Source of the DNA: Lunularia cruciata
Lineage: Eukaryota > Streptophyta > Marchantiopsida > Lunulariales > Lunulariaceae
Assembly: GCA_948567375.1 (NCBI GenBank)
Contig: OX419759.1
Coordinates: forward strand, 7,098,744 to 7,162,743
Length of the DNA: 64,000 nt
Reading direction: 5' to 3'
A program made the position numbers and the translations under genes. Numbering within the stretch: position 1 is the first letter of the stretch; each line of letters begins with the position of its first letter. Positions 1 through 60,818 of the stretch are shown here, one piece after another. The notes beneath the pieces are model-generated. The model was not told the DNA's origin, made no database searches, and saw only the letters and a list, made by a program, of their open reading frames with translations.

Positions 1-240
1 TCAAAGCTTGTTTGACCAACCAGATAGGACCTAGACCAGACAGGTCACCCATCCAAGTCAGTAATCCAAGGGTGGAGCTTGCTGACATGTCACCTATCTG
101 TGTCCCTAATCCTATGATGGAGCTTCCTTGGAGGAGATCCTCTTTGTCTATATAATAAAGAGAAGGTGCTCCCTTGGGGCATCGAATGTTTGAGTGTGCA
201 ATCTGTGTTTTCTCTCTTCTCTTGTCCTCGGAGTATAACA
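1..240 (+). repeat. 3' end of an LTR (family S), cut by the window edge
   Basis: This stretch matches the last part of the nested LTR at 2152-2889 and of its counterpart at 16279-17018. It includes a TATA-like CTATATAATA and ends in AGTATAACA. The corresponding place in copy B (about 13958) runs on without interruption, so this LTR was inserted into copy A only. Whether it is a solo LTR or the end of a full element lies outside the window. Confidence 0.75.
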
Positions 241-2151
241 CTCATCCATACATCTAGATCATCCAAGTCCAAAACTAAAGAAGCATCTCAACAAATGGTT
301 GCAAGTAAATCTGGATCTTGTCCATAGAATAGAAAGTAAGGAGAGAAGGATGCTAAGGAGGCTTGCCGACTGAACTGATAGCCCATGGCCAACCAAGGTA
401 AATGGAGATCCTAATCTCCCAATTGGCCTCTCTATAAACCATACTTTTGCAATCCTCTCTTCATCGTCTGAACCACTCTCTTTGCTAAGTCATCTGCCTC
501 AATGTGATCTCGAGAGGTAGTATGATGATCAATCAAAGCCTTGTCACATAAGACCTGAAACTCCCCCAAGAACTCTATACCTTGATCAATCAAAACCTTA
601 GTTGGTGCACCAAAATGACTAAGAACCCGGTCTAAGAACAAGTAAGCCATTCCTTCACTAGACTTGTCAAGAAGTACCAACAACTCAGTCCACTTGGAGA
701 AGTGCTCCACCATCACCAAAACATATTTTTGATGTCTCACGATCAATAGTAAAGGTCAGGAAAAGTCCAAAATCCAATAGTAACCCAATCCCATGATAGG
801 TAATGAGTGCAACTGTGGCATAGGAGCATTAAATGATGCTCTAACTTGGTCACAAACCACACATCTAGCAACAAACTACTATACATTGGTCTGCATATTG
901 CACCACCAATACTGACTTGGGAGTAAGCTATATGTATGCTTTACTCCAAAATGTCCTAGCTCCTCATGAGCATGACGGACCAATTGTAGTCTTTGAGAGG
1001 GAAGTGGTATTACTTTCACTCTACTATCTTCCCATAGATGCAAAAGGTGTCTACCCTCCAATCTAAACCGTTTGGCTTGCTAAAGAACATTGTTTCTCTC
1101 TTTGGCCCAATTGTGCCACCCACAACACTAGTGCAAAGATAGTCCATCATAAAGATATCATCATGAATGTCTTGCTGGACTATACCAATATCTTCACTCT
1201 CTAGATCTATGACTTCAATAACTCGTCCTATATGTGCTGAGAGAGATATCACCAAAATCTCAAAAAATACACACAAAAAGGCAGATGCATGCCAACCTTG
1301 CACCATCTCCTCATCTGAGTCACAATACCAACATACTTTGGTCTAATCTTGCTGGCTGGTACATGGGTTTCTACTCAACCCATCTGCATCATGATTCACC
1401 ACTCCAAGTCTATGAATAATAGTGAAATCATACTCTTATAAAATTAGAGCCCATTGTGCAAGCTTTCCTAAAAGCTTGTCGGACTCCATCAACCACTTCA
1501 ACAGTTGATGATCAATAATGAGAGTGAAGGAGCTACCAAATAGGTAACATAAAAAATGTGATATTGCCCAAATGGCTGCCAAACACTCTCTCTCATATGA
1601 ACTATACTTTGCATCCGCTGAATTGTTGGAGCAACTAGCATAGGCCACCACAAACTCCTTCCCCTCATCATCATGTTGGGTAGCTTCAGTGCTTCAAGCC
1701 CCAACATACTCCATTCAATATGAACCTAAAATGGTCATCCTTTGATCTATCTCCTCAAAATAAGAGCAGATGTCAACCTCTCCTTTAGCTCTACAAAAGC
1801 TCTCTCCTACTCATCTCCCCAAACACCACTCATGTGTAAGCTTGGTCAGCTTTGTCAAGGCCTTGGCAATGGCACTAAATCCTCTAACATAGCGGCGATA
1901 GAAGTTCACCAACCCAAGGAATGCTTGCATTGTGCTTACATCCATAGGCTGAGGAATACGTGCAATAACCTCCACCTTGGTCTACTGAACACCAAGTCCT
2001 CAGGGTAGATAGTGTGATCCAAATACTCAACTTGCTCATGGAAGAACATACAATTCCTAGGATGTTATTTGAGTCCATGAGATCTCAACCTCTCAAACAC
2101 CTCCAACAATGTCTCTCATGCTCCTCCACAATAGTGCTATAGACCAAAATG

Positions 2152-2889
2152 TGTAATACCAAGAGCTATCCACATGATCTAGATGTGAAATTTGGTTTGG
2201 TAACATCCAGAATGATGTTATACATGATGGTTAAAATAGATCAGATAGAAGTATCACCAAAAGAGTACTTCTACTAATAGTGCAGAAATTGAAATAGACT
2301 TGAGAAGCTTACCAATAGCTAGACATATGATTTAAAGGTGGGAAATGGTTTGGTAATATCTGGAAGGATGTTACACATGATGGACTAAACAGATCAGAAA
2401 GAAGTATCACCAAAAGGGGACTTCTATTAATAGAGTAGGAATCAAAATATGCTTGAAATATTTGAAGGCAATTTTGGAGGCCTAAACGGATGAATTAGGC
2501 CTCGAAAATGTGCAAAGTCCTCCTCCTCTTTGGAAAAAAGGCTGGCCTTCCCTCCTCCCTACTTCGGCTCATCAAGAGCTTTCCAATGGTACCTTACTCA
2601 TGTGATTTTGAGATGCCTACAGGAAAATTTCCTAAAAGATTCCCTCCGGTCAAAGCTTGTTTGACCAACCAGATAGGACCTAGACCAAACATGTCACCCA
2701 TCCAAGTAAGTAATCCAAAGGTGGAGCTTGCTGACACGTCACCTATCTGTGTACCTAATCCTATGGTGGAGCTTCCTTGGAGGAGATCCTCTTTGTCTAT
2801 ATAATAAAGAGAAGGTGCTCCTTTGGTGCATTGAATGTTTGAGTGGGTAATATGTGTTTTCTCTCTTCTCTTGTCCTCGGAGTATTAAA
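2152..2889 (+). repeat. Solo LTR (family S) nested in the pol region of A
   Basis: The block is 738 bp, begins TGTAATACC and ends about AGTATTAAA. It is flanked on both sides by AAATG (2147-2151 and 2890-2894), a clean 5-bp target duplication. It contains two diverged copies of a block about 90 bp long (near 2190-2280 and 2338-2433), plus a TATA-like CTATATAATA near its 3' part, followed by what would be R/U5. Copy B carries the same LTR with the same target duplication at 16279-17018, so the insertion predates the A/B split. Confidence 0.85.
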
Positions 2890-3879
2890 AAATGTCATCA
2901 TTATAGCACCAAAATCCAATCCAGCTAGGATCCTATCCATGACTCTCTGGAACTCAGAAGGAGCATTCTTTAGCCAAAATGGTAAGAACCTCCATTGATA
3001 TAACACATCCTTGGTGTAAGGATCAATAGCCCAAAATATTACCTTGGACTTATCCTCCTCCTTGATTGGCAATTGATGATTCCCGCTCAAAGATCCAAAG
3101 TATTGAAGATGTTTGCATGTACAATCACATCAAAAATCTCCTCCGCTACAAGCATGGCATACAAATCAGCCTTGGTCTGTTAGTTGATAGGACGGTAATC
3201 TCCATACATCCGCCTATCTTTGTAGTTTCCAGGCGTGTTCTTCTTGGCTGGCATCACTATAGTTGATGTATACTCTCCATGTGAGATCTCCACCAAATTA
3301 GCCTCAAAAAGGTCTCTACTCTGGCTCTAAATCAATGTCCTCTCCATGGCACTATAGTAATAAGGACGTTGAAAACTAGTGTATTGCTAAACAACTCAAT
3401 CTGCATACCAAGTTCTTTTAGAGCACCCAAATCCTTCATTTTGAAGGAAAAAAAACTTGTGTAGCTCCTCAAGAACCTCCAAACCCTCAGTCTTTCCTCT
3501 CCAATAAGCTGGGATCCAAGATCTGGCTCCCAAGTATCCTCTGTAACCGTCACAAGAGTGGAAGACGCATTGACTGGCTGCTACATTGGGCCCTTGGGAG
3601 CAGTAGTGTCATGCCTCCGACCACTAGAGGTCCCAACCTTTGTGTGAAAAAATCCCTCCACTCTGGCTGCAAGCTCCACATGTCCTCTACCTGCATCCCA
3701 AGTGGACCAAGGGTGTACTCCAAGTAGCCCATGCTCACCTGGATGGACTCCAAGTAGACCACTCTCCCTAGTAGCTACTTGCTATGTCCCAAGAATACCA
3801 TGTCCACTCGGTCCATCACCCCCAACATGTGCATGAATCGTCTTGTTAGGCATCAAGCTTACAAGTGTCTGAGTGGTGA

Positions 3880-4862
3880 TGCCTATCAACTGCATCCTAT
3901 GCTGCTTTGCCAAGCCAAGGCTCACAATCTAGGTCAAAAAATTCAGGTCCATAGCCTGACCTAACACCTGATGCTTGGATGCCTCTAACACTTTTGGAAT
4001 GATGGTAATACCATGAAATGTGAAAACTAATTGCTCTCTCTCTCTCTCATCAGCATTAGGCTCCACTTACTACTATAATTGTGAGTCTTAAACCAGTCTA
4101 GGACCTCCCTCTTGAAAATCATGAGAGCTTGGGAAACTCATAAGTGTGTGAAAAGTAGCTCTAGGCTGTCCAACTAGGTTCACCACTACCATAGGTGACC
4201 TATTAGCCACTACCACTATTTGAGACTAACGCTCAACATCCAAGATGTCATCAACAAGGATGTGGTCTAGTCATTGAATCCCATCATATGCATGTTGTAG
4301 AACCTCTTTGGGTAAGAGGTTTATCCACCAAAGACAAAGATGATGAGCTCGTGATCCCACTCTAGCTGCATCTAACAAAACATAGGTCCCATGAAAGAAT
4401 GGACCTAATGTGTACTTGCCACCACCCGGGTAGAATCACCCATCAAAGAGATGTTCTCCAAAATGTAAGCTGGAGAAATAGACAAATGAACTTGGAGATG
4501 TCGTAGTATCCGTAACATCTCCCAAAACACACCAGGACAAGGATTTTGAAGACCCAAACCTTGGCCAACATGTGTATGTCTTTGACATGGCCATCCAAAA
4601 ATCACCAAATGAACAGGCCCATCTCTCTCTAGATCATACACCCCCAGTAAGGAAATGTTTGCTGGGAGGGCTTTCTGGTAACCTTTGACTGCTGACATTG
4701 GTAATAACTTAGGATAGAGGTAGGCCAAGTGTGCCACATGATGTAAAGAGACTTGCCTAATAGTCTCATCTCTCCACATACAAGTACCTCTGTACTCGTA
4801 TACCCGCCTGTATACCACAACTAGTCCAGTGCTAATCCCACCAAACAATTCCAATAGACATA
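3880..4862 (-). mobile_element. C5-cytosine DNA methyltransferase-like domain inside fossil A
   Basis: Motifs of the C5-methyltransferase family appear in canonical order on the minus strand. There is a motif I-like LELFGGISTGL near 4860-4825. PCQ in the context VIFGWPCQRHTHVGQG sits near 4600-4560 (motif IV, which supplies the catalytic Cys in this family). YILENI lies near 4465-4447 (motif VI-like). DAARVGSRAHHL lies near 4370-4330 (motif VIII-like). NLVGQPRATFHTL lies near 4200-4130, in the target-recognition region. VLGQAMDLN is near 3980-3945 (motif IX/X-like end). The domain lies directly downstream of the protease-like region and upstream of the reverse transcriptase, so it belongs to the element and is not a captured neighbour. 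It is a decayed fossil. Assignment to the C5-methyltransferase fold is strong. The target site and past activity cannot be judged. Confidence 0.85.
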
Positions 4863-7800
4863 CTTCCTTTACTAGATACTGCTAAGCAATGAGTGTGGTA
4901 TCCAAAGGTGTCAAAGTAATCAACTTTGGAGGCTCATCCTCATACTCATCTCCTGATGGTACGAAGGTTCTACTCCAAGCCTATTGCACTAATTGATCTG
5001 CATGCAGATGCAATGCCTCCTCTAAACTCCACAATGTAACATCTAAGAAGGATAGAATAATCCCTCTTGTACTCCAAATCCAAGTGATCTCTTTTGGTAC
5101 TTGAGTATCCTCTACATGGGCATTCCACTCTAACAAGTCACTAGGCCAAGTAACAACACCACTAAAAGCTAAAACTAATGCTGCCATGGTCTCAGACTAT
5201 AGTGGGCCAAGATTACCAATACTAAAGCATACGGGTAGATGATATACTTGTCCCTCACCAGACTGCCAACCTGGTCTATAGGAGACTGTCTCCTCCCAAT
5301 AGTCAATGCTGAAACCCATGGAGCATAACACTGCTCCCCCAACTAGGACATTGTATGACTTAGCTATTTTTGTAATTGCCTGAGCTCTCACTACTGAGCT
5401 ATCAATCAGATGACCAGGGTGAACCTAGATAACAACCTCCCCACGTGTGATGTATTGTATCAAACCACCAACTAAAGATGTTTGGATCTGAAATGGACAC
5501 CTCTTCACATTGGTCTTCCGCAACTCTAGACCGACTACTATAGCCTTCCCAAACATAAGAGGCTACGCACTAGGGCCTAACAAGACTCTTTATGGTGTAT
5601 AGGCCTTTCTTGAAGGTCCCACCAGATGGAAAATCCCCCTTTGGTTATCCAATAGGACAACACCAAGTGTGAACCATGCTATCTCAAAGGCCAGTCTCAT
5701 TGGCAACTCCTCTAGTCTAGCTATTGCTGCCTGCCATAAACTATTGGTTGTTGAAAAAATCTCATGCTCCTCAACCAAGTCAGCTCTACTATCAACCACC
5801 TCTACTCTAGCAGTAGGAACTATATCATCCCTATTCTCACAAAGTGTGGCAGCCAAACGGAACACTAGAGCTGGATCAACTCCCAATGTAAACATGTTAT
5901 TGGTTGAAAACAAAGTGCACCGCATAATTACCTAAGCCGCCCAATATCATGCTAGACTCAATATGTGTAGTAGCAGGTGGCTGACTAGCAAGTAGTATAT
6001 CATGCACTCCATCACCACCTACCACACCTACACTGGGATGTCTAGGAGCCATGGATGTTGTTTGCAATGCCTCAAATAGCATGAAAGATTAGGGAAGTCT
6101 GACATGCTCCCAACCTCTCCTCTTTGTGGGTCCAACTCCATTGATACCCCTCTAGGCTCTAGAGCACGTACAACACTCCTAGTTATTGTTGCAAATGCAT
6201 CCACTTGTGCTATTTTGCACAGGAAGTCCAATGCATCTCTATCACCAACATATGAGGTGGAAGTTTCAACAAATCTAATATCCTCTGAGCAATAGCCATA
6301 CTAGCCAATCTCTTCTCCAATTGCTCAATCTAAGTAGCCATAGTTGTATCAAAAGTAAGGGCAAGTATTTCACCCCTACTAGGTGTAGATCCTCTACCAC
6401 CACCTCTACCACCTTGTCCTCCATGACCTAGAGCTCCTCTACTACCTACCATAACAACCCTACCACTCCGTAACTATGGGTGTAGATCAAAGCATCAATC
6501 ACTAGAATGACCATATCTGTGACAATGCTCACACTATCTCTATGCTAGTTATGACACACTAGAGGTATTAGGTCCATTGCCTTGAGTACCCTCTCTCCTA
6601 TGGTGAGGTCCACCACAGGTTCAACAAGCAACACCACCATTCATTAGCTACTGCTGACCCTAAAATGAAAGTAAGGGTCTAACTACAGTAGGCCCTCCAC
6701 TTGCTCCATAAGATCTAGGCTATCCACCCTATCCTCAAAAACCAACTAGGCATGGTGCACTCTGCTGCACTCTAGAAGAAGTAACAACTGTGGATGAGGT
6801 CTCCCTACCAAATCTAGATGTCACCACCTTCTATTCCACCATGTTGAGCTCAATACGCTTAGCCAAACTAAAGACCACTACCAAAGTAGGCAAAGTAGCC
6901 AACAACAATGTAACATCACAAACTCTACGTCACAACTCCTTGTCTAGTATCCCATACCAAAACTGGATTGCTTGGGCCTCAGTAACTCCTTGAGTGAAAT
7001 TGATCAGCCACCTCAGGGAGTGTATGCCTTGCGTAAGCTCTCTCCAGACTTCCGTTGGAACTCCTGCAAGCTCCTTAGCTTGTCAGTCTGCACTCCTTGG
7101 TAGTTCTGCCTCAAACACTAAAAGAACTCCACCATGGGATTAACCTCCAATACCACACCACCTACTATAGCGATACCTCCACTTGTAGTAGCATTATCTG
7201 TAGCTAGTGCACCACCACTAGCTCCACCAATGCTACTTGAGCTAGAACTCATGGGTATTACCAATCTACTCTTGAAAACCGAGCCTAAAGTGATCAACAC
7301 ATAGTTCAAAGACCAATATTGTCTCCATAACTCAATCTCCTCCAAATTAGCTCTTGTGAACTTATGGTAGTAATCCATTGGTGGACCCTCCATATGCTAA
7401 AACAACCACTTCCATGCCATGAGGGGTGTAAACAAAGTTGGGTTCCGCATCTACTGTTTACCACACCAACTATCAAACTCATGGATGAAGTCATCCAACT
7501 CAATGGTACCCATTGTATTAAAGTAACACCTAGGGCCTTTAGAGGCTCCACAAATCTAGTCCATGTCCCACAACAATGGTCCAGACACACCAAGTGATCT
7601 CTCCATTGAATTAGCTCTTGTATCAAAATCCAACTCAGAGTCAATCTCCTCCTTCATTGGACCTGAAATATAGGTTGATACCGAGCACCACTCCAAGTAA
7701 ACCCGTTGCGTACTACAAGGCTAATTCCTCTAGAATCCCTAAAGAACTCTATTGTGACAAAGTAATAGTAACTGCAATCGCAAACCGGAACGACAAACTG

Positions 7801-8319
7801 CAACCGCAAGTACCTCACCAGCTCTAGCCAAAATTTGCAACTTCAAAACTCCTCCAAATCTAGCAAAGCTCTTCCAAATTCGGCCAAAATCTGATGTAAA
7901 ATCCAACAAAAATCTAATGTAAACTCTAAATTTGGCTGATTGCCAAATCCTCCTCTAACTCTCCACTCAAGCCAAATTGAATTAACAAATTTTCCAAATC
8001 ACAAATTCATGAGAATAGGTTCCCAACTCCACCTTCAATTTTACTTTTTGAGCGAAACTTGCAACAAATTGGTTCTGCCTTCACCTCTTGAGCTCAAAAT
8101 CACAACCACTCCTCAAAAATTACTTCTTATTTGCTCAAAAATTGGCCAACACTTTTGCACAATGTTTGCCTTATTGCAAAATCTGCATCAAGCAATGAAC
8201 TTCTGCACACCACGGAAAACTTGAACTTTGATCAAGCTACCAATGATCCAATGCACTTGGAGATACCACCAACACTCATAGTTTCTATATCCAATTTCTC
8301 CATGACTTCACTTCTTTTA

Positions 8320-8771
8320 TGTAATTAGATCGTTTACAACTCTCAAATCAACTCAACTCAAATCAATTTTCGATTTGTCACTCTATAAACTACCAACAAT
8401 TGGGCACTCATTACAGTCAAGTCACACCCACTCTAGCTAAGAGAATCCAGGTGATGCTCGCCGGTCTTTGTCCATCACAACCAATAACTCAAAGGCTCAA
8501 CATCAAAGAAGTGAGCTCTCTTGAGCTACACTTGGAAAGTATACCATTGGACTCGAGCTAGGTTTGAAACCCTAATGGTCCCATTGACGGCACACTTGAT
8601 GGTGCAAACAATGCAAAGTGATGGTGTGCCCCATTGTAAAGTCAATACCCCAAACACAAAATCTGACCATCAAAAAGTAGTCTATGGGAAACTACTGAAA
8701 TACTTTTAACTACTATCACTACAAGTTCAGTGTCCAAACAATCTAGATGCGACACTACAAATAACATGACA
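8320..8771 (-). repeat. Right (5') LTR block L of fossil A
   Basis: This 452-bp block runs from TGTAATTAGATCG to ACATGACA on the plus strand and is repeated at 22487-22938 and, more diverged, at 12714-13170. On the minus strand the internal region starts next to its inner end. The inner flank in copy B reads ATCAGAG, a partial match to the initiator-Met tRNA primer site. AAGTG follows the outer end. It probably represents only part of the original LTR, because the left-hand LTR of B has extra sequence (block X). Confidence 0.7.
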
Positions 8772-9346
8772 AAGTGCAGCACTATGCAAGAAGGGAAAGA
8801 GAGTATAATTACATATAATTCTTTTAAGGATTTGGTGTTTATAATAATACAGTCAAGAGGAAAATTCATTTTGATCGAGTATTAAGTTACATTATAGATG
8901 ATATAGATAAGAGTAGACTTGATAATCTGAAATGATCAAATTATATAAGAGGATATTATGAGTAATTAACAATAGCAGATATTATGATCGGATTACAACT
9001 GAGGATATTATGATCAAGCTACAATGGCAGATATTATGTTCAAATTACAACATTGGATATTATGATCAAGCCACAATAGCAGATATTAGGATCGAAATTA
9101 CAACAGTGGATATTATGATCGAGCTACACTAGCAAATATTATTATTGTGAATTCCATACAAGAAATTTTTGGAAAAGATCACTATGAATTCTCTTGAATG
9201 GGTTGCAAGTAGAGAAAGAAAATACAAAGACATCCAAGCATACAAATTATCTAACAAAGTTATCTCTTTGTTATTCAAAACATAGAATGTTATGTAGTTA
9301 TGGATAGAGAGTTTAATTTATTTGTAAAATTTGGTACAAGAACTTA
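8772..9346. repeat. Flank shared by A and B, with a short tandem repeat
   Basis: This sequence beyond the outer LTR is repeated after copy B at 22939-23461, with few differences. It therefore marks a duplication larger than the element. Within it, 8945-9140 carries alternating 26-base units built around GATATTATGATC (a 52-base higher unit). Copy B has one 52-base unit fewer. No gene is seen. Confidence 0.75.
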
Positions 9347-12300: not shown

Positions 12301-12635
12301 AAAATAGATGAAAAAGGTAAGTATTATAATTAGTGATCATAATATATCCATATTTATTATGAATTTGATTTAAAACCTTTCAAATATTTCAAAATTCTAG
12401 TGTAATACTTTGATTTCAAAATGAAATATTCTAACATATAGTATTATATATATTTATATTATCATTTAATTTTAATTTATTCATGGGTGTTGTTGGGATG
12501 TATTTTTAAAATTTTATTCAACATATGTATTAAGGTATTTTTGATTTATATTAATTTTTTAATTTGTTTGTAATGATAAAGATAGTCTACTGTTGATACA
12601 CCCACTATATCTCAATTATTTACTTGTAAGTTGTT
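9347..12635. other. AT-rich intergenic stretch
   Basis: This is strongly AT-rich sequence with no recognisable coding region. Near 9.6-9.8 kb there are three degraded stretches resembling the primer-site end of LTR elements, such as ACTAATACCAGAG and TTGATATCAATG. A short dispersed repeat sits at 11849-11928 (listed separately). The remainder shows nothing I can name. Confidence 0.5.
11849..11928 (+). repeat. Short dispersed repeat (GGATGGGAAGACCCCATCAA family)
   Basis: About 75 bases align well with the reverse complement of 38750-38825, starting AAGGATGGGAAGACCCCAT. The first 19 bases recur at about 42472. No known element was recognised. It could be the conserved end of an old transposable element. 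Confidence 0.55.
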
Positions 12636-13272
12636 GTGCATATATACATCACTATCAACATCATACACTATATAAGCACAACTCACACATAACTCATACA
12701 TAAACTCTAAAGTGTCACAATAATCAGATCGTTTATAACTCTCAAATCAATTCAACTCAGATCAGTACTTGATCTATCACTCTATAAACTGCCAACAATT
12801 GGACATTCATTACAGTCAAGCCACACCCACTCTAGCTAAGAGAATCCATGTGACGCTTGCGAGCCTCTATCCACCATAGCAAGGAACTCAAAGGCTAAAC
12901 ATCATAGAAATGAGCTCTTTTGAGCTACACTTTGAAAGTATACCCCATGGACTTGAGCTAGGTCTAAAACCCTAATGGTCCCACCAACGGCATACTTGAC
13001 GGTGAAAACGGTGCAAAGTGACAATGGGTCCCACTTTGAAGTCAATCCCCAAACACAAAATTTGATAGGAGGAAAGTAGTCTATGGGAAACTATTGAAAT
13101 ACCTCTAATTACTATCACTGCAACTTCAATGTTTGAGCAATCTAGATGCGACACTACAAATGGCATGACAATTATCATGCGTATATACATTGTTACACAA
13201 CATACATCATTGTCAACATCATACACTATAGAAGTACAACTCACACATAAGTCATACATAAACTCTAAAGTG
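12636..13272 (-). repeat. Left (3') LTR region of B, block order X-L-X
   Basis: Block X (about 80-95 bp, on the minus strand starting TGRCACTTTAGAG) occurs at 12636-12716 and again at 13176-13272. Block L (12714-13170) lies between them. The minus-strand sequence just inside is G-rich (GGGGGG near 13278), as expected of a polypurine tract next to an LTR start. The simplest reading is an LTR of X plus L (about 555 bp) followed by the start of a second LTR. An alternative is that L inserted separately. AAGTG at 12709-12713 matches AAGTG after the right LTR (22939-22943), but X itself ends in this sequence, so its status as a target duplication is uncertain. Confidence 0.6.
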
Positions 13273-15300
13273 CCAGAGTTGCCCCCCTAGCTGGCGGTAA
13301 GATCCCTCTAACTCCAGATAGCCATCCACTCCAAGTATATGGTATACCCTATGATGGACAAAGATCAGAAGGCCAAGTGCTATAGAGCACCATTGTTAGT
13401 CGCTTGTCTGCAATCTATGCCATATAAAGAATGAACTAGCTATAGGTCAAGTACATCTAGGATATAACCACTATCTATAAGGAACCACCATGAGAGGAGG
13501 AGTCATACATGCCATATGCCATCCTCTCAAATAGTTATCACACACTAACATAATAGCAGCTCCACCAAAAGAGCCACATAACATAGACCTCAAGCTTGCA
13601 CGTACTAGTGCCAAGCTTGGGTCCATAATACCATCAATGTTTGGGAGGTGGCATGGCGCACAATTGCACACATGATCCTTCCAAACAACACCATCATGTC
13701 CTTTCAACACAAGGACTCCAGATGGCAAAACCTCATGCACTCTCAAGATAGTACGGCCTGTCAAAACATCAAGTGTTGTCAATATTGTCTATTGTAGATA
13801 AACATAGTCTCCTAGATGAAATCAATGGATTGAAGGTCTATAACCTCCTCCTCAAATGGTAGCATAACATAAAGTATCTCTATGTTGAGCAATCACCAAG
13901 TTCTCAAAGGCCATCAACATCACTCTCCAAAAGATCTCTGCCCACTTAGAACATGCGCTCATCCATACATCTAGATCATCCAAGTCCAAAACTAAAGAAG
14001 CATCTCAACAAATAGTTGCAGGTAAATTTGGATCTTGTCCATAGAATAGAAAGTAAGGAGAGAAGGATGCTAAGGAGGCTTGCCGACTGAACTGATAGCC
14101 CATGGCCAACCAAGGTAAATGGAGATCCTAATCTCCCAACTGGCCTCTTTATAAACCATACTTTTGCAATCCTCTCTTCACCGTCTGAACCACTCTCTTT
14201 GCTAAGCCATCTGCCTCAATGTGATCTTGAGAGATAGTACAATGATCAATCAAAGCCTTGTCACGCAAGACCTGAAACTCCCCCAAGAACTCTATACCTT
14301 GATCAATCAAAACCTCAGCTGGTGCACCAAAATGACTAAGAACCCGGTCTAAGAACAAGTAAGCCATTCCTTCACTAGACTTGTCAAGAAGTACCACCAA
14401 CTCAGTCCACTTGGAGAAGTGCTCCACCATCACCAAAACATATTGATGATGTTTCACAATCAATAGTAAAGGTTCGGCAAAGTCCAAACTCCAATAGTAA
14501 CCCAATCCCATGATAGGTAATGGGTGCAATTGTGGCATAGGAGCATTAAATGATGCTCTAACTTGGTCACAAACCACACATCTAGCAACAAACTACTATA
14601 CATTGGTCTGCATATTGCACCACCAATAATGACTTGGGAGTAAGCTATATGTACGCTTTACTCCAAAATGTCTTAGCTCCTCATGAGCATGACTGACCAA
14701 TTGTAGTCTTTGAGAGGGAAGTGGTATTACTCTCACTCTACTATCTTCCCATACACGCAAAAGGTGTCTGCCCTCCAATCTAAACCGTCTGGCTTGCTAA
14801 GAACACGATCTCTCTCCTTGGCCCAATTGTGCCACCCACAACACTAGTGCAAAGATAGTCCATCATTAAGACATCATCATGAATGTCTTGCTGGACTATA
14901 CCAATATCTTCACTTTCTAGATCTGTGACTTCAATAACTCATCTTGTATGAGCTGAGAGAGATATCACCAAAGTCTCAAAAAATATACACAAAAAGGTAG
15001 ATGCATGCCAACCTTGCACCATCTCCTCATCTGAGTTACAATACCAACATACTTTGGTCTAATCTTGCTGGCTGGTACATGGGTTTCTACTCGACCCATC
15101 TGCATCACGATTCACCACTCTAGGTCTATAAATAATAGTGAAATCATAGTCTTATAAAATCAGAGCCCATTGTGCAAGCTTTCCTAAAAGCTTGTCAGAC
15201 TCCATCAACCACTTCAACAATTGATGATCAATAATGAGAGTGAAGGGGCTACCAAATAGGTAACATCAAAAATGTGATATTGCCCAAATGGCTGCCAAGT

Positions 15301-15710
15301 TGTAACAATATGGAGTTTAGCGACGAAGTCAGTCGGGCTCACAAAGTAGCACATAAGACAAATTAGCCTAGAATATTACGGAAGTATCTAGGAAGCTTCT
15401 TGGGAAGCTTCTTGGTCAGCTTAGCTTGCACCTTAAGTAAGTAGCTTCTAGAAGCTTCCAACTAGCTTAGCTTGCACGCCAAGTAGGCGGCTTCTAGAAG
15501 GAAGCTTCTTGAGAAGCTTCCTAGTTAACTTGGCTTGCACTCTAAGAAAGCGGCTTGAGGAAGCTCCTTGAGAAGCTTCTCAAGGGCCTTGTAACCTATA
15601 AATACCAAAGCCAAAGCTCATGCTAGGCATTTGGAGTTTTCCCTCATTCAAGTGTCCCAATGTGAGTTTCCATTCTCCTATTTCTCTCCTTGGTTTCGGT
15701 CTTTTATACA
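15301..15710 (+). repeat. Solo LTR of family C nested in fossil B
   Basis: This 410-bp block starts TGTAACAATATGGAG and ends in TTTTATACA. It is rich in AGAAGCTTC-type motifs. It matches, in opposite orientation, the LTRs of element C at 48305-48742 and 53506-53788. Copy A has continuous sequence at this place (near 1598), so this insertion postdates the A/B duplication. No clean target duplication is visible. Confidence 0.8.
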
Positions 15711-16278
15711 AACACTCTCCCTCATATGAACTATACTTTGCCTCCGCTGAATTGTTGGAGCAACTAGCATAGGCCACCACAAACTCCTTCCCCTCATCAT
15801 CATGTTGGGTAAGCACTGCTTCAAGCCCCAACATACTCCATTCAATATGAACCTGAAATGGTCGTCCTTTGATCTATCTCCTCAAAATAAGAGCAGATGT
15901 CAACCTCTCCTTTAGCTCTACAAAAGCTCTCTCCCGCTCATCTCCCCAAACACCACTCATATGTAAGCTTGGTCAGCTTTGTCAAGGCCTTGGCAATGGC
16001 ACTAAATCCTCTAACATAGCGGCGATAGAAGTTCACCAACCCAAGGAATGCTCGCATTGTGCTTACATCCGTAGGCCGAGGAATATGTGCAATAGCCTCC
16101 ACCTTGGTCTGCTGAACACCAAGTCCTCAGGGTAGATAGTGTGATCCAAATACTCAACTTGCTCATGGAAGAACATACACTTCCTAGGATGTAATTTGAG
16201 TCCATGAGATCTCAACCTCTCAAACACCTCCAACAATGTCTCTCATGCTCCTCCACAATAATGCTATAGACCAAAATG

Positions 16279-17018
16279 TGTAATACCAAGAGCTACCCAT
16301 ATGATCTAGATGTGAAATTTGGTTTGGTAACATCTAGAATGATGTTATACATGATGGTTAAAATAGATCAGATAGAAGTATCACCAAAAGAGTACTTCTA
16401 CTAACAAGGCAGAAATTGAAATAGACTTGAGAACCTTAGAACCAATAGCTAGACATATGATTTAAAGGTGAGAAATGGTTTGGTAACATCTAGAAGGATG
16501 TTACACATGATGGACTAAACAGATCAGAAAGAAGTATCACCAAAAGTGGACTTCTACTAATAGAGTAGGAATCAAAATATGCTTGAAATATTTGAAGGCA
16601 ATTTTGGAGGCCTAAACGGATGAATTAGGCCTCAAAAATATGCAAAACCCCCCTCCTCTTTAGAAAAAAGGCTGGCCTTCCCTCCTCCCTACTTCGGCTC
16701 ATCAAGAGATTTCCAATGGTACCTTACTCATGTGATTTTGAGATGCCTACAGGAAAATTTCCTAAAAGATTCCCTCCGGTCAAAGCTTGTTTGACCAACC
16801 AGATAGGACCTAGACCAGACATGTCACCCATCCAAGTAAGTAATCCAAAGGTGGAGCTTGCTGACATGTCACCTATCTATGTAGCTAATCTATGGTGGAG
16901 CTTCCTTGGAGGAGATCCTCTTTGTCTATATAATAAAAAGAAGGTGCTCCTTTGGTGCATCAAATGTTTGAGTGGGTAATATGTGTTTTCTCTTTTCTCT
17001 TGTCCTTGGAGTATTAAA
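16279..17018 (+). repeat. Solo LTR (family S) nested in the pol region of B
   Basis: This 740-bp counterpart of 2152-2889 occupies the same internal position and is flanked by AAATG on both sides (16274-16278 and 17019-17023). It has the same internal duplicated block and TATA-like CTATATAATA. Sharing the site with A shows common ancestry of the two copies after this insertion. Confidence 0.85.
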
Positions 17019-17999
17019 AAATGTCATCAATATAGCACCAAAATCCAATCTAGCTAGGATCCTATCCATGACTCTTTGGAACTCAAAAGGAGCATTCTTT
17101 AACACAAATGGTAAGAACCTCCACTGATATAACACATCCTTGGTGTAAGGATCAATAGCCCAAAATATTACCTTGGGCTTATCTTCCTCCTTGATTGGCA
17201 ATTGATGATTCCCGCTCAAAGATCCAAAGTATTGAAGACCTTTGCATGCCCAATCACATCAAAAATCTCCTCCGCTACAAGCATGGCATACAAATCAGCC
17301 TTGGTTTGTTGGTTGATAGGACGGTAATCTCCATACATCCGCCTATCTTTGTAGTTGCCATGAATATCCTTCTTGGCTGGCATCACTATAGCTGATGTAT
17401 ACTCTCCATGATAGATCTCCACCAAACTAGCCTCAAAAAGGTCTCTACTCCGGCTCTGAATCAATGTCCTCTCCATGGCACTATAGTAATAAGGATGTTG
17501 AAAACTAGTGTATTGCTAAACAACTCAATCCGTATATCAAGTTCTTTTAGAGCACCCAAATCCTTCATTTTGAAGGCAAAAAAACTCGTGTAGCTCCTCA
17601 AGAACCTCCAAACACTCAGTCTTTCCTCTCCAATAAGCTGGGATCCAAGATCTGGATCCCAAGTATCCTCTGTAACCATCACAAGAGTGGAAGACGCATT
17701 GGCTAGCTGCTACATTGGGCCCTTGGGAGCAATAGTGTCATGCCTCCGACCGCTAGAGGTCCCAACCTTTGTGTGAAAAAATCCCTCCACTTTGGCTGCA
17801 AGCTCAACACGTCCTCTACCTGCATCCCAAGTGGACCAAGGGTGTAATCCAAGTAGCCCATGCTCACCTGGATGGACTCCAAGTAGACCACTCTCCCTAG
17901 TAGCTATTGGCTATGTCCCAAGAATACCATGTCCACTCGGTCCATCACCCCCAACATATGCATGAATCGTCTTGTTAGGCACCGAGCTTACAAGTGTCT

Positions 18000-18995
18000 A
18001 AGTGGTGATGCCTATCAAGTGCATCCTATGCTGCTTTGCCAAGCCAAGGCTCACAATCTAGGTCAAACAATTCAGGTCCATAGCCTGACCTAACACCTGA
18101 TGCTTGGATGCCTCTAACACTATTGGAATGATAGTAATATCAGTGTGAAAACCCATTGCCCGCTCTCTCTTATCAGCATTATGCTCCTCTTACTACTATA
18201 ATTGTGAGTCTTAAACCAGTCTAGGACCTCCCTCTTGAAAAGCATGAGAGCTTGGGAAACTCATAAGTGTGTGAAAAGCAGCTCTAGGCTGTCCAACTAG
18301 GTTCACCACTACCATAGGTGACCTATTAGCCACTACCACTATTTGAGGCTAACGCTCAACATCCAAGATGTCATCAACAAGGATGTGGTCTAGTCACTGA
18401 ATCCCATCATATGCATGTTGTAGAACCTCTTTGGGTAAGAGGTTTGTCTACCAAAGACAATGAGCTCGTGATCCCACTCTAGCTGCATCTAACATCTAGC
18501 TGTAAACACATTAAGTCCATCCAAGAATGGACCTAATGTGTATTTGCCACCACCCGGGTATGAGAATCACCCATCAAAGAGATGTTCTCCAAAATGTAAG
18601 CTGGAGAAATAGACAAATGAACTTTGAGATGTCGTAGTATCCGTAACATCTCCCAAAACACACCAGGACAAGGACCTTGAAGACCCAAACCTTGGCCAAC
18701 ACGTATATGTCTTTGATATGTCCATCCAGAAATCACCAAATGAACAGGCCAATATCTCTCTAGATCATACACACCCAGTAAGGAAATGTTTGCTAGGAGG
18801 GCCTTCTGGTAACCTCTAACTGCTGACATTGGTAATAACTTAGGATAGAGGTAGGCCAAGTGTGCCACATGATGTAAAGAGACTTGCCTAGTAGTCTCAT
18901 CTCTCTCCACATACAAGTACCTCTGCACTCGTATACCCACCTATAATACCACAACTAGTCCAATGCTAATCCCACCAAACAATTCCAATAGACAT
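18000..18995 (-). mobile_element. C5-cytosine DNA methyltransferase-like domain inside fossil B
   Basis: This is the counterpart of the domain in A. Visible signatures include VERDETTRQVSLHHVAHLA (the region after motif I), GLGLQGPCPGVFWEML (just after motif IV), YILENISLMGDS (motif VI-like) and VLGQAMDLN near the distal end. It lies between the protease-like region and the reverse transcriptase, as in A. It is decayed. The presence of the domain in both copies at the same place shows that it was part of the ancestral element. Confidence 0.8.
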
Positions 18996-21900
18996 ACTCC
19001 CTCTGCTGGATACTGCTAAACAATGAGTGTGGTATCCAAAGGTGTCAAAGTAATCAACTTTGGAGGCTCATCCTCATACTCATCTCCTGATGGTACGAAG
19101 GCTCTACTCCAAGCCTATTGCACTAATTGATCTGCATGCTGATGCAATGCATCCTCTAAACTCCACAATGGAACATCTAAGAAGGATGGAATAATCTCTC
19201 TTGTACTCCAAATCCAAGTGATCTCTTTTGGTACTTCAGTATCCTCTACATGGGCATTCCACTCTAACAAGTCACTAGGCCAAGTAACAACACCACTAAA
19301 AGCTAAAACTAATGCTGCCATGGTCTCAGACTATAGTGAGCCAAGATTACCACTACTGAAGCATATGGGTAGATGACATACTTGTCCCTCACTAGACTGC
19401 CAACCTGGTCTTTAGGAGCTTGTCTCCTCCCAATAGTCAATGCTGAAACCCATGGAGCATAATACTACTCCCCCAACTAGGACATTGTATGACTTAGCTA
19501 TTTTTGTAATTGCTTGAGCTCTCACTACTGAGCTATCAATCGGATGACCAAGGTGAACCTAGATAACAAGCTCCCCACGTGTGATGTACTGTATCAAACC
19601 ACCACCTAAAGATGTTTGGATCTGAAATGGACACCTCTCTACATTGGTCTTCCGCAACTCTAGACCGACTACTATAGTCTTCCCAAACATAAGAGGCTAC
19701 ACACTAGGGTCTAACAAGACTCTTTATGGTGTATAGGCCTTCCTTGAAGGTCCCACTAGATGGAAAATCCCCCTTTGGTTATCCAGTAAGACAACACTAG
19801 GTGTGAACCATGCTATCTCAAAGGCCGGTCTCATTGGCAACTCCTCTAGTCTAGCTATTGATGCATGCCATAAACCACTGGTTGTTGAACAAATCTCATG
19901 CTCCTCAACCAAGTCAGCTCTACTATCAACCACCTCTGCTCTAGCAATAGGAACTGTATCATCCCTATTCTCACAAAGTGTGGCAGCCAAACGGAACACT
20001 AGAGCTGGATCAACTCCCAATGTAAACATGTTATTGGTTGAAAACAAAGTGCACTGCATAATTACCTAAGCCGCCCAACAACATGCTAGACTCAGTATGT
20101 GTAGTAGCAGGTGGCTGACTAGCAAGTAGTATATCATGCACTCCATCACCACGTACCACACCTACACTGGGACGTCTAAGAGCCATGGATGTTGTTTGCA
20201 ATGCCTCAAATAACATGAAAGATTGGGGAAGTCTGACATGTCTCCCAACCTCTCCTCTTTGTGGGTCCAACTCCACTGATGCCCCTCTAGGCTCAGGAGC
20301 ACGTACAACACTCCTAGTTATTGTTGCAGATGCATCCACTTGTGCTATTTTGCACAGGAAGTCCAGGAAGTCCAATGCATCTCTATCACCAACATATGAG
20401 GTGGAAACTTCAACACCCAAATCTAATCTCCTTTGAGCAATAGCCATACTAGCCAATCTCTTTTCCAATTGCTCAATCTAAGTAGCCATAGTTGTATCAA
20501 AAGTAAGAGCAAGTATTTCACCCCTACTAGGTGTAGATCCTCTACCACCACCTCTACCACCTTGTACTCCATGACCTAGTGCTCCTCTACCACCTGCCAT
20601 AACAACCATACCACTCCGTAACTATGGGTGTAGATCAAAGCATCAATCACTAGGATGACCATATATGTGATAATGCTCACACTATCTCTGTGCTGGCTAT
20701 GACACACTAGAGGTATTAGGTCTGTTATCTTGAGTACCCTGTCTCCTATGGTGAGGTCCACCACAAGTTCAACAAGAAACACCACCATTTATTAGCTACT
20801 GCTGACCCAAAAATGAAAGTAAGGGTCTAACTACAGTAGGCCCTCCACTCGCTCCATAAGATCTAGGCTATCCACCCTATCCTCAAAAACCAACTAGGCA
20901 TGGTGCACTTTGTTGCACTCTAGAAGAAGTAACAACTGTGGATGAGGTCTCCCTACCAAATCCAGATGTCATCACCTTCTCCTTCACCATGTTGAGCTCA
21001 ATACGCTCAGCCAAACCAAAGACCACTACCAAAGTAGGCAAAGTAGCCTACAACAACATAGCATCACAAACTCTACGTCATAACTCCTTATCTAGTATCC
21101 CATACCAAAACTGGATTGCTTGGGCCTCAATAACTCCTTGAGTGAAATTGATCAGCCACCTCAGGGAGTGTATGCCTTGCATAAGCTCTCTCCAACCTTT
21201 TGTTGGAACTCCTGCAAGCTCCTCAGCTTGTCAGTCCGCTCTCCTTGGTAGTTCTGCCTCAAACACTAAAAGAACTCCAACATGGGATTAACCTCCAATA
21301 CCACACCACCTCCTATAGCGATACCTCCACTCGTAGTAGCATTATTTTTAGCTAATGCACCACCACTAGCTCCACCAATGCTACTTGAGCTAGAACTCAT
21401 GGGTACTATCGATCTACTCTTGAAAACTGAGCCTAAAGTGATCAACACATAGTTCAAAGACCAATATTGTCTCCATAACTCAATCTCCTCCAAATTAGCT
21501 CTTGTAAAATTATGGTAGTCATCCATTGGTGGACCCTCCATATGCTAAAACAACCACTTCTATGCCATGAGGGGTGTAAACAAAGTCAGGTTCCGCATCT
21601 ACTGCTGATCACACCAACTATCAAACTCATGGATGAAGTCATCCAACTCAATGGTATCCATTGTACTAGAGTAACACCTAGGGCCTTTGGAGGCTCCACA
21701 AATCTAGCTCATGGCCCACAACAACGGTCTAGACACACCAAGTGCTCTCTCCATTGAATTAGCTATTGTATCAAAATCCAACTCAGAATCAATCTCCTCC
21801 TTCATTGGGACCTGAAATATAGGTTGATACCAAGCACCACTCCAAGTAAACCCATTGCGTATACAAGGCTAACTCCTCTAGAATCCCTAAAGAACTCTAT

Positions 21901-22486
21901 TGTGACAAAGTAACCGTACTGTAACCGCAAACCGGAACCACAAATTGCAACCGCAAATCACAACCGCAAGTACCTCACTAGCTCTAGCCAAAATTTGCAA
22001 CTTCAAAACTCCTCCAAATCTAGCAAAGCTCTTCCAAATTTGGCCAAAATCTGATGTAAACTCCAACAAAAATCTGATGTAAACTCTAAATTTGGCTGAT
22101 CGCCAAATCCTCCGCTAACTCTCCACTCAAGCCAAATTGAATTAATAGGTTTTTCCAAATCATAAATTCATGAGAATAGATTCCCAACTCCACCTTCAAG
22201 TTTACTTTCTCAGCAAAACTTGCAACAAATTGGTCCTACCTTCACCTCTTGAGCTCAAAATCACAACCATTGCTCAAAAATTACTTCTTCTTTGCTCAAA
22301 AATTGGCCAACACTTCCGCACACTGTTTGCCTTATTGCCAAATCTGCATCAAGCAATGAACTTGAACTTCTACACACCAGGGAAAACTTGAACTTTGATC
22401 AAGCTACCAACAATCCAATGCACTTGGAGATACAACCAACACTCATAGTTTTTGTACCTAATTTCCTGATGACTTCACTTCTCTGA

Positions 22487-22938
22487 TGTAATTAGATCGT
22501 TTACAACTCTCAAATCAACTCAACTCAGATCAGTTTTTGATTTGTCACTCTATAAACTACCAACAATTGGGCACTGATTACAGTCAAGTCACACCCACTC
22601 TAGCTAAGAGAATCCAGGTGACGCTCGCCGGCCTTTGTCCATCACAACCAAGAACTCAAAGGCTCAACATCAAAGAAGTGAGCTCTCTAGAGCTACACTT
22701 TGAAAGTATACCATTGGACTCGAGCTAGGTTTGAAACACTAATGGTCCCATTGACGGCACACTTGATGGTGCAAACAATGCACAGTGATGGTGGGCCCCA
22801 TTGTGAAGTCAATACCCCAAACAAAAAATCTGACTATCAAAAAGTAGTCTATGTGAAACTATTGAAATACCTTTAACTACTATCACTACAAGTTCAGTGT
22901 CCAAGCAATCTAGATGCGACACTACAAATAACATGACA
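22487..22938 (-). repeat. Right (5') LTR block L of fossil B
   Basis: This 452-bp block is nearly the same as 8320-8771. It runs from TGTAATTAGATCG to ACATGACA and is followed by AAGTG. On the minus strand its inner flank contains ATCAGAG, resembling a tRNA-Met primer site. Confidence 0.7.
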
Positions 22939-23461
22939 AAGTGCAACACTATTCAAGAAGGGAAAGAGAGTATAATTACATATAATTCTTTTAAGGATTT
23001 GGTGTTTATAATAATACTGTCAAGAGGAAAATTCATTTTGATCGAGTATTAAGTTACATTATACATTATATAGATAAGAGCAGACTTAATAATCTGAAAT
23101 GATCAAATTATATAAGAGGATATTGTGAGTAATTAACAATAGCAGATATTATGATAGGATTACAACTGAGGATATTATGATCAAGCTACAATGGCAGATA
23201 TTATGATCGAATTACAACAGTGGATATTATGATCGAGCTACACTAGCAAATATTATTATTGTGAATTCCATACAAGAAATTTTAGGAAAAGATCACTATG
23301 AATTCTCTTGAATGGGTTGCAAGTAGAGAAAGAAAATACAAAGACATCCAAGCATACAAATTATCTAACAAAGTTATCTCTTTGTTATTCAAAACATAGA
23401 ATGTTATGTAGTTATGGATAGAGAGTTTAATTTATTTGTAAAATTTGGTACAAGAACTTAA
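22939..23461. repeat. Right flank of B, duplicate of 8772-9346
   Basis: The sequence matches the flank of A until about 23461, then diverges into an AT-dinucleotide run. The tandem 26/52-base repeat (about 23105-23250) is one 52-base unit shorter than in A. This gives the right boundary of the large duplication. Confidence 0.75.

Positions 23462-45095: not shown

Positions 45096-45163
<68 letters not shown>
45096..45163. repeat. (TA)n microsatellite
   Basis: This is an uninterrupted alternating TA run of about 68 bases, about 34 units. It directly adjoins block X of an A/B-family LTR scrap. Confidence 0.95.
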
Positions 45164-45164
45164 T

Positions 45165-45345
45165 CAATATACATTGATGTCAACATCATACACTATAGAA
45201 TCACAACTCACACATAAGGCATACATGAACTCTAAAGTGTCACAAAATCTTCCCTAGTTGACGGGTAGGTCACTCTAACTCCAAATAGCCATCTACTCCA
45301 AGTATCTGGTATACCCTATGATGTACAAAGATTAGGAGACCGGTG
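45165..45345 (-). mobile_element. Scrap of the A/B Ty3/gypsy family
   Basis: Block X (45165-45242) and the adjoining polypurine-tract end of the internal region (to about 45345) align with 13176-13370 of B. Here X is followed directly by the (TA)n tract and not by block L. The match stops abruptly at about 45345. It is a broken remnant. Confidence 0.75.
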
Positions 45346-60300: not shown

Positions 60301-60818
60301 AGGACAACCATGAAGACTTCCACCGGATATTCTCCATTTCAATTGGTATATGGTATTGAGTCTACCTTACCTATTCAGTTTGATCTTCCTACCTTCCAAA
60401 GCATTCATAGGAGATTGAAGAAAGCACAAGGAGGTGATGTAGAGAAGTCAAGGAAGGATCAACTCATGGAGTTGGAAGAGGCAAGAGCAATTGCTATGGT
60501 ATGAGTGGAGCAAGCCCAAAGGAAACAAAAGGAGAGCTATGACAAGAGGCAAGGCAAGAAGAAGGTGGAGACTTTCAAAGAAGGTGATTGGGTAGTGTTG
60601 TTTGATTCCATTCGATTCAAGAGAGTGCAAAAGAAGTTTTTGCCTAAGTACTTTGGACCTTTCATAGTGGAGAAGGTGTGGGGCAATTACACCTATGATC
60701 TCAAGGAGTTGGGAAGAAGACACTTTGATAGGATTAACCATGATAAGTTGAAAATGTACCATAGAAGGTAGAGAGACCTTCACTTTGAGGACAAAGTGAA
60801 AACTTAGTCCGGGGGTAA
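54392..60818 (+). mobile_element. Ty3/gypsy LTR retrotransposon fossil D (internal region)
   Basis: On the plus strand the order is leader (54.4-55.9 kb), gag (about 55.9-56.9 kb, with a zinc-knuckle-like FGCGRRGYIQGYC), protease (about 57.35-57.6 kb, with ALVDGGSAMNAM), and a long pol block (about 57.9-60.8 kb). Pol shows reverse transcriptase (VCVDYKKLN, MPFGLCNAPATFQRFM, FIDDFCVYG), RNase H (LYIDASNVAIGCTLSQ, VTDHKALKYI), an integrase zinc region (HxxH then CKTCHVCQ) and an integrase core (WGIDFLGPL, VVTDYLTKWVEV, VSDRGGEF). A polypurine tract (GTCCGGGGGTAAA) precedes the 3' LTR. The integrase style suggests a non-chromoviral lineage, but this is only a guess. It is the best preserved element in the window, yet broken, with roughly five to ten breaks. 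Confidence 0.9.

Follow-up and report, generated by a model that had tools for sequence, protein, structure and literature searches.

A locus in the genome of the liverwort Lunularia cruciata raises the question why a transposon should carry a DNA methyltransferase, the maker of its own silencing mark. The window, a stretch of 64,000 nucleotides (assembly GCA_948567375.1, contig OX419759.1, positions 7,098,744 to 7,162,743), had been predicted to hold at 3880..4862, on the minus strand, a fossil C5-cytosine methyltransferase (MT) domain within a Ty3/gypsy element, and the host genome to harbour a possibly large lineage of such elements. Two related copies, A and B, are found in the window, with the following features:

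8322..8771, minus strand: 5' terminal repeat A1 of copy A, about 450 bp; 81% identical (blastn) to its counterpart in a genome copy and 95.8% to A1 of copy B
3584..7809, minus strand: decayed ORF1 of copy A (gag, zinc knuckles, linker, protease region, MT); 69-77% identity (tblastn) to the 1428-aa ORF1 of another copy in the genome
5166..5658, minus strand: retropepsin-like protease region of copy A, position interpolated; relatives P0027, P0031 and P0058 have aspartic-protease Pfam matches
3895..4881, minus strand: DNMT3-type MT domain of copy A, predicted from profile, phmmer, tblastn, family alignment and fold; ends approximate
3581..3583, minus strand: in-frame TAG of copy A at the MT/RT junction, context TAG-CAG-CCA (tblastn and junction alignment)
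1178..3580, minus strand: reverse transcriptase (RT) and RNase H of copy A, broken by a nested insertion (tblastn; RT_RNaseH 9.9e-23)
2141..2900, minus strand: nested insertion in the RT of copy A, ends approximate; 95.8% identical to 16268-17029, with the same flanks and the same site in copy B
237..1106, minus strand: integrase of copy A (tblastn 79%; rve 2.9e-8)
22489..22938, minus strand: 5' terminal repeat A1 of copy B, preceded by ACTT (sequence comparison)
17713..21955, minus strand: decayed ORF1 of copy B, with the MT at about 18016-19015 (tblastn)
17710..17712, minus strand: in-frame TAG of copy B, context TAG-CAG-CTA (junction alignment)
14894..17709, minus strand: RT and RNase H of copy B, with the nested insertion 16268-17029 inside (sequence comparison)
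13450..14796, minus strand: integrase and C-terminal PHD finger of copy B, decayed (tblastn 82%; PHD alignment)
13173..13278, minus strand: internal repeat B1 of copy B (repeat comparison)
12721..13170, minus strand: internal repeat A2 of copy B (repeat comparison)
12632..12720, minus strand: 3' terminal repeat B2 of copy B, followed by ACTT (repeat comparison)

The window segments 241-9346 and 13958-23460 form a segmental duplication of two units of about 9 kb, about 14 kb apart and 94-95% identical, both with the old element, the insertion nested in it and the flank. Because they share this identity, the nested insertion and the flank, copies A and B are read as one old insertion that was later duplicated. 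The RVT_1 match of copy A (9.1e-4) lies below the cut-off, and Pfam gave no match for the linker and protease pieces of the window. In copy A, a repeat akin to the nested insertion (1-236) removes the 3' part of the integrase, whose PHD end lies outside the window; in the PHD finger of copy B, several zinc ligands have been lost.

The repeat that interrupts both copies, up to about 760 bp long, occurs at three window sites (1-236, 2141-2900 and 16268-17029); the latter two represent one insertion doubled via the duplication, and the first cuts the copy A integrase. Other Ty3/gypsy RT/integrase remains lie at 49383-51363 (minus strand), 58015-60372 (plus strand) and 62224-63784 (plus strand), with 28-35% identity to the family, and the ORF1/MT query had no match at these three places. 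At 45149-45343 lies an isolated 195-bp piece, 83% similar to the element's 3' untranslated part.

In copy A, the motifs quoted in the original prediction are all present on the minus strand from about 4881 to 3895, in a decayed Ty3/gypsy element and between the protease region and the RT. Their order is I (LELFGGISTGL), IV (GWPCQ), VI (YILENI), VIII (AHHLCLWW) and the C-terminal block VLGQAMDLN, as assigned by alignment against complete family members and DNMT3A, and the domain starts near 4881, slightly beyond the range initially given. Copy A ORF1 contains several frame changes and 38 stops, summed over alignment pieces of which a few overlap. The window piece alone reaches only E=0.002 and 18 bits against PF00145, under the 22-bit cut-off of Pfam, and among its PDB matches DNMT3B (0.38) comes behind an unrelated Kelch protein (0.048); such weak scores are what a decayed copy may give. 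The 158-aa open piece at window:4408-4881, searched with phmmer, matched 7 proteins among 19 candidates, with E-values down to 1.3e-45 and 41-57% identity, and five of the seven carry a precomputed PF00145 match. Judged by these sequence relatives, the MT domain in the window is not a chance resemblance.

The type of the enzyme was assigned from complete copies elsewhere in the genome. One of them matched DNMT3A in the PDB by phmmer (E=1.2e-8) with an alignment across motifs I-VIII, and its last MT motifs align to DNMT3A in a second stretch that is not significant on its own. A profile of 12 MT sequences ranked DNMT3A (3.9e-23) before DRM (3.5e-10), HhaI (2.4e-8) and the tRNA C38 enzyme (2.9e-6). 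An AlphaFold2 model of the MT (pLDDT 88, pTM 0.90), submitted to Foldseek, returned only DNMT3 entries among the best 50 rows listed (3A, 3B or 3C, some with 3L), with a best E of 3.0e-18 and TM-scores by query of 0.61-0.68 among the matches listed. Motifs I, IV, VI, VIII and IX/X stand unrearranged in DNMT3 order, with motif I before VIII-X, unlike the rearranged DRM. In the 41 complete MT domains, the catalytic cysteine is present in 40 (one gap) and the EN of motif VI in all, and motif IV reads mostly PCQ or ECQ, as against PCN in human DNMT3A. The MT is thus a predicted DNMT3-type C5-cytosine methyltransferase catalytic domain, which by profile and model appears nearer to DNMT3 than to DNMT2, DRM or bacterial enzymes; for DNMT1 the comparison consists of the profile and fold rankings, the tree holding no DNMT1 or CMT row. 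The host genome also contains a DNMT3-like exon, L029 (G000:C7:31989700-31990300), with the motifs LFDGIGG and GGFPCQDLS. By their motifs, we take L029 to be a DNMT3-like, L030 a DRM-like and L032 a CMT/MET-like host exon.

On these points the original prediction holds up: alignment to complete members and DNMT3A bears out the ordered motifs, the matches for RT, RNase H, integrase and MT bear out a Ty3/gypsy element with a built-in C5-methyltransferase, and the stops and frame changes show the window domain to be a fossil of a family with complete open copies elsewhere. The proposed check by a C5-MTase profile gave a divided answer, with the window piece below the cut-off and the complete copies and the 12-sequence profile firmly matching DNMT3A. 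The alternative of an unrelated family with a chance PCQ is contradicted by the domain's relatives and by the profile match.

In the source genome (565.8 Mb, 74 contigs), the MT query matched at all 150 scored places, drawn from 10,814 first-look candidates and including the window and the second window copy, with 72-100% identity (81% for copy B), and the open frames around these matches reach 1428 aa. A PF00145 search of the genome, in which 123 of 2,161 candidates were scored, matched mostly over profile positions 48-120, like the element. Ten further genome copies were taken as pairs of stretches selected for long open frames; 15 fetched copies served for comparing MT and junction, and ten for the RT. 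ORF1 is 1428 aa long in two of the ten and consists of a gag-like region that matches Retrotrans_gag at only E=0.055, followed by zinc knuckles, a protease region with L-D-S-G and then the MT. ORF2 of one copy gave Pfam matches to RT (1.5e-33), RNase H (7.9e-37) and the integrase domains H2C2 (3.7e-19) and rve (3.5e-13), and the best PDB match of the integrase query is Ty3 Gag-Pol (2.7e-23). The domain order PR-RT-RNaseH-integrase and the kind of RT and integrase are those of Ty3/gypsy elements.

At the very C-terminal end of the ORF2 integrase lies a PHD finger (Pfam 8.2e-11), whose PDB neighbours include CHD4, KMT2D, PHF12 and KDM5. A 71-residue PHD query matched in full in eight of ten 3' stretches (one with a stop) and partially in L028; in L026 the match is decayed and on the opposite strand. 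Chromoviruses are Ty3/gypsy elements with a chromodomain at the integrase C-terminus; in the one copy examined, Pfam found no chromodomain at this place, only the PHD finger.

ORF2 follows ORF1 in the same frame, separated by a single TAG at an identical place in 15 of 15 fetched copies and also present in both window copies. Directly after the TAG, 13 of the 15 copies have CARYYA, the exceptions being L002, with TAA next, and L008, with a shifted hexamer. A pattern that required CARYYA and left the stop codon free found 1,197 junctions in the genome (597 + 600), where the reversed control gave 0 and 1, and at the 100 of these places listed the junction codon is TAG in 96, TAA in two, TTG in one and GAG in one. 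Beyond the TAG there is no Met before codon 48 and no stop for at least 74 codons (10/10 copies). The available part of PMC3542737 gives UAG_CAR_YYA as the tobamovirus type I readthrough motif. Readthrough of the UAG is the likely way in which RT and integrase get expressed, and the MT would then be made in the proportion of Gag. As had been foreseen, the genome hosts a large lineage of Ty3/gypsy elements with a built-in MT.

The ends of the elements are unusual. Repeat A, about 450 bp, occurs at both ends, with 89.4-99.4% identity over 319-540 bp in nine of ten pairs; no A1/A2 pair was found in the tenth copy. Repeat B (106 bp) stands after the 3' A and also just before the same A, 97% identical in the copy measured. 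In window copy B, as in all nine fetched copies that were readable, two B units flank A2. The resulting layout is A1-ORFs-B1-A2-B2, with the outer ends TGTC...GACA. The four base pairs before A1 equal those after B2, as target duplications, in nine of ten copies with both ends (L009, L011, L013, L015, L019, L021, L023, L027 and window copy B; unequal in L017); for L025 no 3' end could be located. The B1-A2 joint is exactly the palindrome GACA-GC-TGTC in four of ten copies and has at least one change in the other six. No complete identical LTR is present at both ends, A1 standing at the 5' end and B1-A2-B2 at the 3' end, and on its sequence the family is classed as one with a Ty3/gypsy-type pol and unusual ends. 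Plain LTRs, the first reading, were rejected, since independent copies share the sequence past the 3' repeat and have it upstream as well. The end of A2 before B2 varies between at least two positions (about 449 or 540 bp; L010, L028 and others), as if B2 had been added by template switch.

Across the 15 copies, the MT shows dS 0.056, dN 0.022 and dN/dS 0.40 (105 pairs), and the RT of ten copies a dN/dS of 0.33 (45 pairs), values that include neutral change after insertion; since the ten copies were chosen for long open frames, ages and dN/dS lean towards the young and intact. A dN/dS for gag-PR (ratio of means 0.71, median 0.43; 36 of 45 pairs, with nine pairs more than 25% apart skipped) was set aside, the rows having been compared ungapped. 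The family evidently includes young copies. In copy B, A1 and A2 are 84.7% identical, and relative to one young copy both fossils show C-to-T change at 0.37 of CG, 0.34 of CHG and 0.09 of CHH sites, with T-to-C at 0.04. This pattern is as expected after plant-type methylation and fits host enzymes equally.

A protein search with the MT part of ORF1 yielded 54 proteins from 7,988 scored candidates, among them 15 from Marchantia polymorpha (60-74% identity), Sphagnum fallax (50%) and Closterium sp. NIES-53 (35%). In type A relatives, gag-PR-MT stands at the front, with the same domain order in Marchantia; the Closterium relative reads gag-PR-MT-RT, with no stop at the junction. Type B relatives have RT-RNaseH-MT-integrase, with a PHD finger where the protein is long enough, and P0062, which has a long branch and an unstable tree position, carries the MT ahead of the RT. 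A search with integrase and PHD finger matched 448 proteins, and the best 120 listed include Chlamydomonas reinhardtii, Volvox, Pleodorina, Tetrabaena, Haematococcus and Chromochloris. These 120 comprise 115 new proteins, of which 93 contain an MT (with rows from Chlamydomonas, Volvox reticuliferus, Pleodorina, Tetrabaena, Haematococcus and Chromochloris), eight lack one but do have RNase H and integrase (their gap measures 196-222 aa, the median of 64 MT-bearing proteins being 661 aa), and 14 are incomplete on the MT side. Since the MT-less proteins are nested at two points among the MT-bearing ones (FastTree, local supports 0.94 and 0.39), the MT was probably lost in some algal-type elements. 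The aligned Cys is missing from 11 of 83 further MT domains, in seven of them through gaps.

In some algal-type tails, outside the window, a further domain follows the PHD finger (P0151, P0152, P0127, P0135 and others). By a strict motif search, 10 of the 115 have DPFxGxG and TSPPF/TSPWF-like motifs of the sort known from amino (N6A/N4C) DNA methyltransferases. The best Pfam match of this domain, D12 (E=0.0037), is below the cut-off, and a profile search of the PDB gave nothing better than 0.027, to a histone; its AF2 model (pLDDT 88.6) has as best Foldseek match the adenine-N6 methyltransferase M.TaqI (E=2.9e-5), among other SAM enzymes.

The MT tree (51 rows; Sphagnum below the length cut) separates type A (96/84) from type B (99/93), and the RT tree (24 rows) agrees, placing Closterium next to the liverwort rows (84/63). 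This split between liverwort-type and algal-type elements in both trees would fit old vertical descent, one of the two routes, vertical or horizontal, envisaged in the original prediction. Set against the host enzymes, as had been suggested, 20 transposon MTs form one clade (99/99), the outside rows being only the host DNMT3-like exon, host DRM and human DNMT3A; a tree of two separate MT captures, joining type A with these three rows, is not rejected (AU p=0.104). A scan of IMG/VR with the MT alignment gave 67 pattern stretches, none of them confirmed. With relatives in liverworts, moss and green algae, MT-bearing elements look old and widespread in green plants. It is conceivable, at somewhat short of even odds, that one DNMT3 capture before the chlorophyte/streptophyte split founded a clade combining MT, PHD-finger integrase, DIRS-style split-repeat replication and DDE integration, which spread in green algae, mosses and liverworts, the MT being reshuffled and at times lost.

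As a whole, the locus is best explained as a fossil copy of a DNMT3-bearing Ty3/gypsy-type family whose MT would be packaged and methylate the element's own cDNA and whose PHD finger would steer integration (probability about 0.66). Most ribosomes would stop at the UAG, giving Gag-protease-methyltransferase, and a few would read through and add RT and integrase; with stopping the rule and readthrough rare, the MT would be made at the Gag level and packaged in the particle. It would then methylate CG sites of the new cDNA before integration, which may mark the copy as host-like or silent. The PHD finger would read histone H3 tails and steer integration, in place of the chromovirus chromodomain, and the internal B1-A2 unit would restore ends lost in transcription. 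According to the available text of PMC5890265, SymbioDIRS-Dnmt3, a related kind, conferred de novo CG methylation in yeast, and KnitGypsy-Dnmt3 gave no methylation there, a result its authors considered inconclusive. The eight of 115 proteins without MT count against the explanation, the MT appearing dispensable in them.

A chance chimera, in which a single gypsy copy has a host DNMT3 gene, whole or fragmentary, next to or inside it, is hardly credible: the window, it is true, holds only decayed copies, but the MT keeps its in-frame place in every fetched copy and the junction recurs 1,197 times, Marchantia and others share the domain order, and the transposon MTs stand apart from the three outside rows. 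Action of the MT on RNA, either the element's genomic RNA or host RNA, instead of DNA would be in keeping with the tRNA enzymes among C5-MTase folds, with the departure of motif IV from PCN and with the RNA methylation that the 2018 authors raised for SymbioLINE (PMC5890265, in the part available); the rank of DNMT3 far above DNMT2 in both profile and fold makes it distinctly unlikely. Less probable again is an MT that has lost its catalysis and is retained for structure or binding within the particle. The near-complete conservation of Cys and EN and a dN/dS close to that of the RT speak against such a role, even though the MT is not essential in MT-less algal-type relatives and some further domains lack the aligned Cys.

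The remaining alternatives concern what methylation achieves and how ORF2 is expressed. Methylation could be a form of self-restraint or serve the host, silencing new copies and lowering damage without protecting the cDNA, an option that the accessible text of PMC5890265 names and that the C-to-T excess of old copies at CG and CHG would suit. Host enzymes can account for these scars equally well, so that the excess does not separate self-restraint from cDNA protection, and this alternative is considered rather unlikely. ORF2 would also be expressed if translation began at codon 48 or after splicing, the TAG being merely the end of ORF1. The Met at codon 48 lies ahead of the RT core, and the readthrough hexamer is missing in two of 15 copies; the stop-free continuation in frame right after the TAG, the prevalence of amber under a pattern that left the codon free, and the Closterium relative without a stop all favour readthrough, and reinitiation or splicing seems an outside chance of much the same order as self-restraint.

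Among published elements, the nearest in kind is KnitGypsy-Dnmt3 of Klebsormidium nitens (de Mendoza et al. 2018, PMC5890265), to which the family is likened by description and not by sequence, and which matches the charophyte precedent named in the original prediction. A figure legend gives it Gypsy domains with a DIRS-like repeat layout, and an unrearranged DNMT3 is further common ground; it is because of the DIRS-like repeats and the DNMT3 in a Gypsy element that the two are set side by side. The DNMT of KnitGypsy-Dnmt3 is reported in the paper to be under purifying selection. Unlike the element as described, the Lunularia family has its MT in ORF1, upstream of an amber codon; the main text, so far as available, does not mention a PHD finger, and its single 'stop codon' concerns Symbiodinium. 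According to its authors, the K. nitens lineage acquired KnitGypsy-Dnmt3, whereas relatives of the Lunularia family reach land plants and chlorophytes, a distribution which suggests a trait far older than a Klebsormidium-lineage event. K. nitens names occur neither among the 54 MT-search matches nor among the 120 listed of the 448 integrase-PHD matches.

Other retrotransposon-borne DNMTs are SymbioDIRS-Dnmt3 and SymbioLINE-Dnmt of dinoflagellates, which, in the part of PMC5890265 available, are tyrosine-recombinase or LINE elements of other hosts. PAT elements likewise have A1-B1-A2-B2 split direct repeats, and some PAT/DIRS elements carry a methyltransferase (PMC4157794, in part); these elements use a tyrosine recombinase, make no target duplication and are without integrase, whereas the DDE (rve/H2C2) integrase and 4-bp duplications keep the Lunularia family outside DIRS/PAT. 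The available part of PMC12344493 places some DNMT3 members within retrotransposons of streptophytes and dinoflagellates. In the accessible portions of a literature that took in few subscription journals and included PMC12344493, PMC6453930, PMC10952607, PMC5784723 and PMC5408684, neither such elements from liverworts, mosses or chlorophytes nor a Ty3/gypsy integrase with a PHD finger were described.

Being large, with young copies and with relatives in the model Marchantia, the family renders the purpose of the MT testable, and its gag-side MT ahead of an amber codon, together with PHD finger and split repeats, leads to specific testable predictions. Compared with chromoviruses, a chromatin-reader module sits at the same place, with a PHD finger instead of the chromodomain, and the family does not belong among them on that character. 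DNMT-bearing gypsy elements are a kind already known, and what marks out the Lunularia family is the amber junction, the PHD integrase, the 4-bp duplications with split repeats and the distribution.
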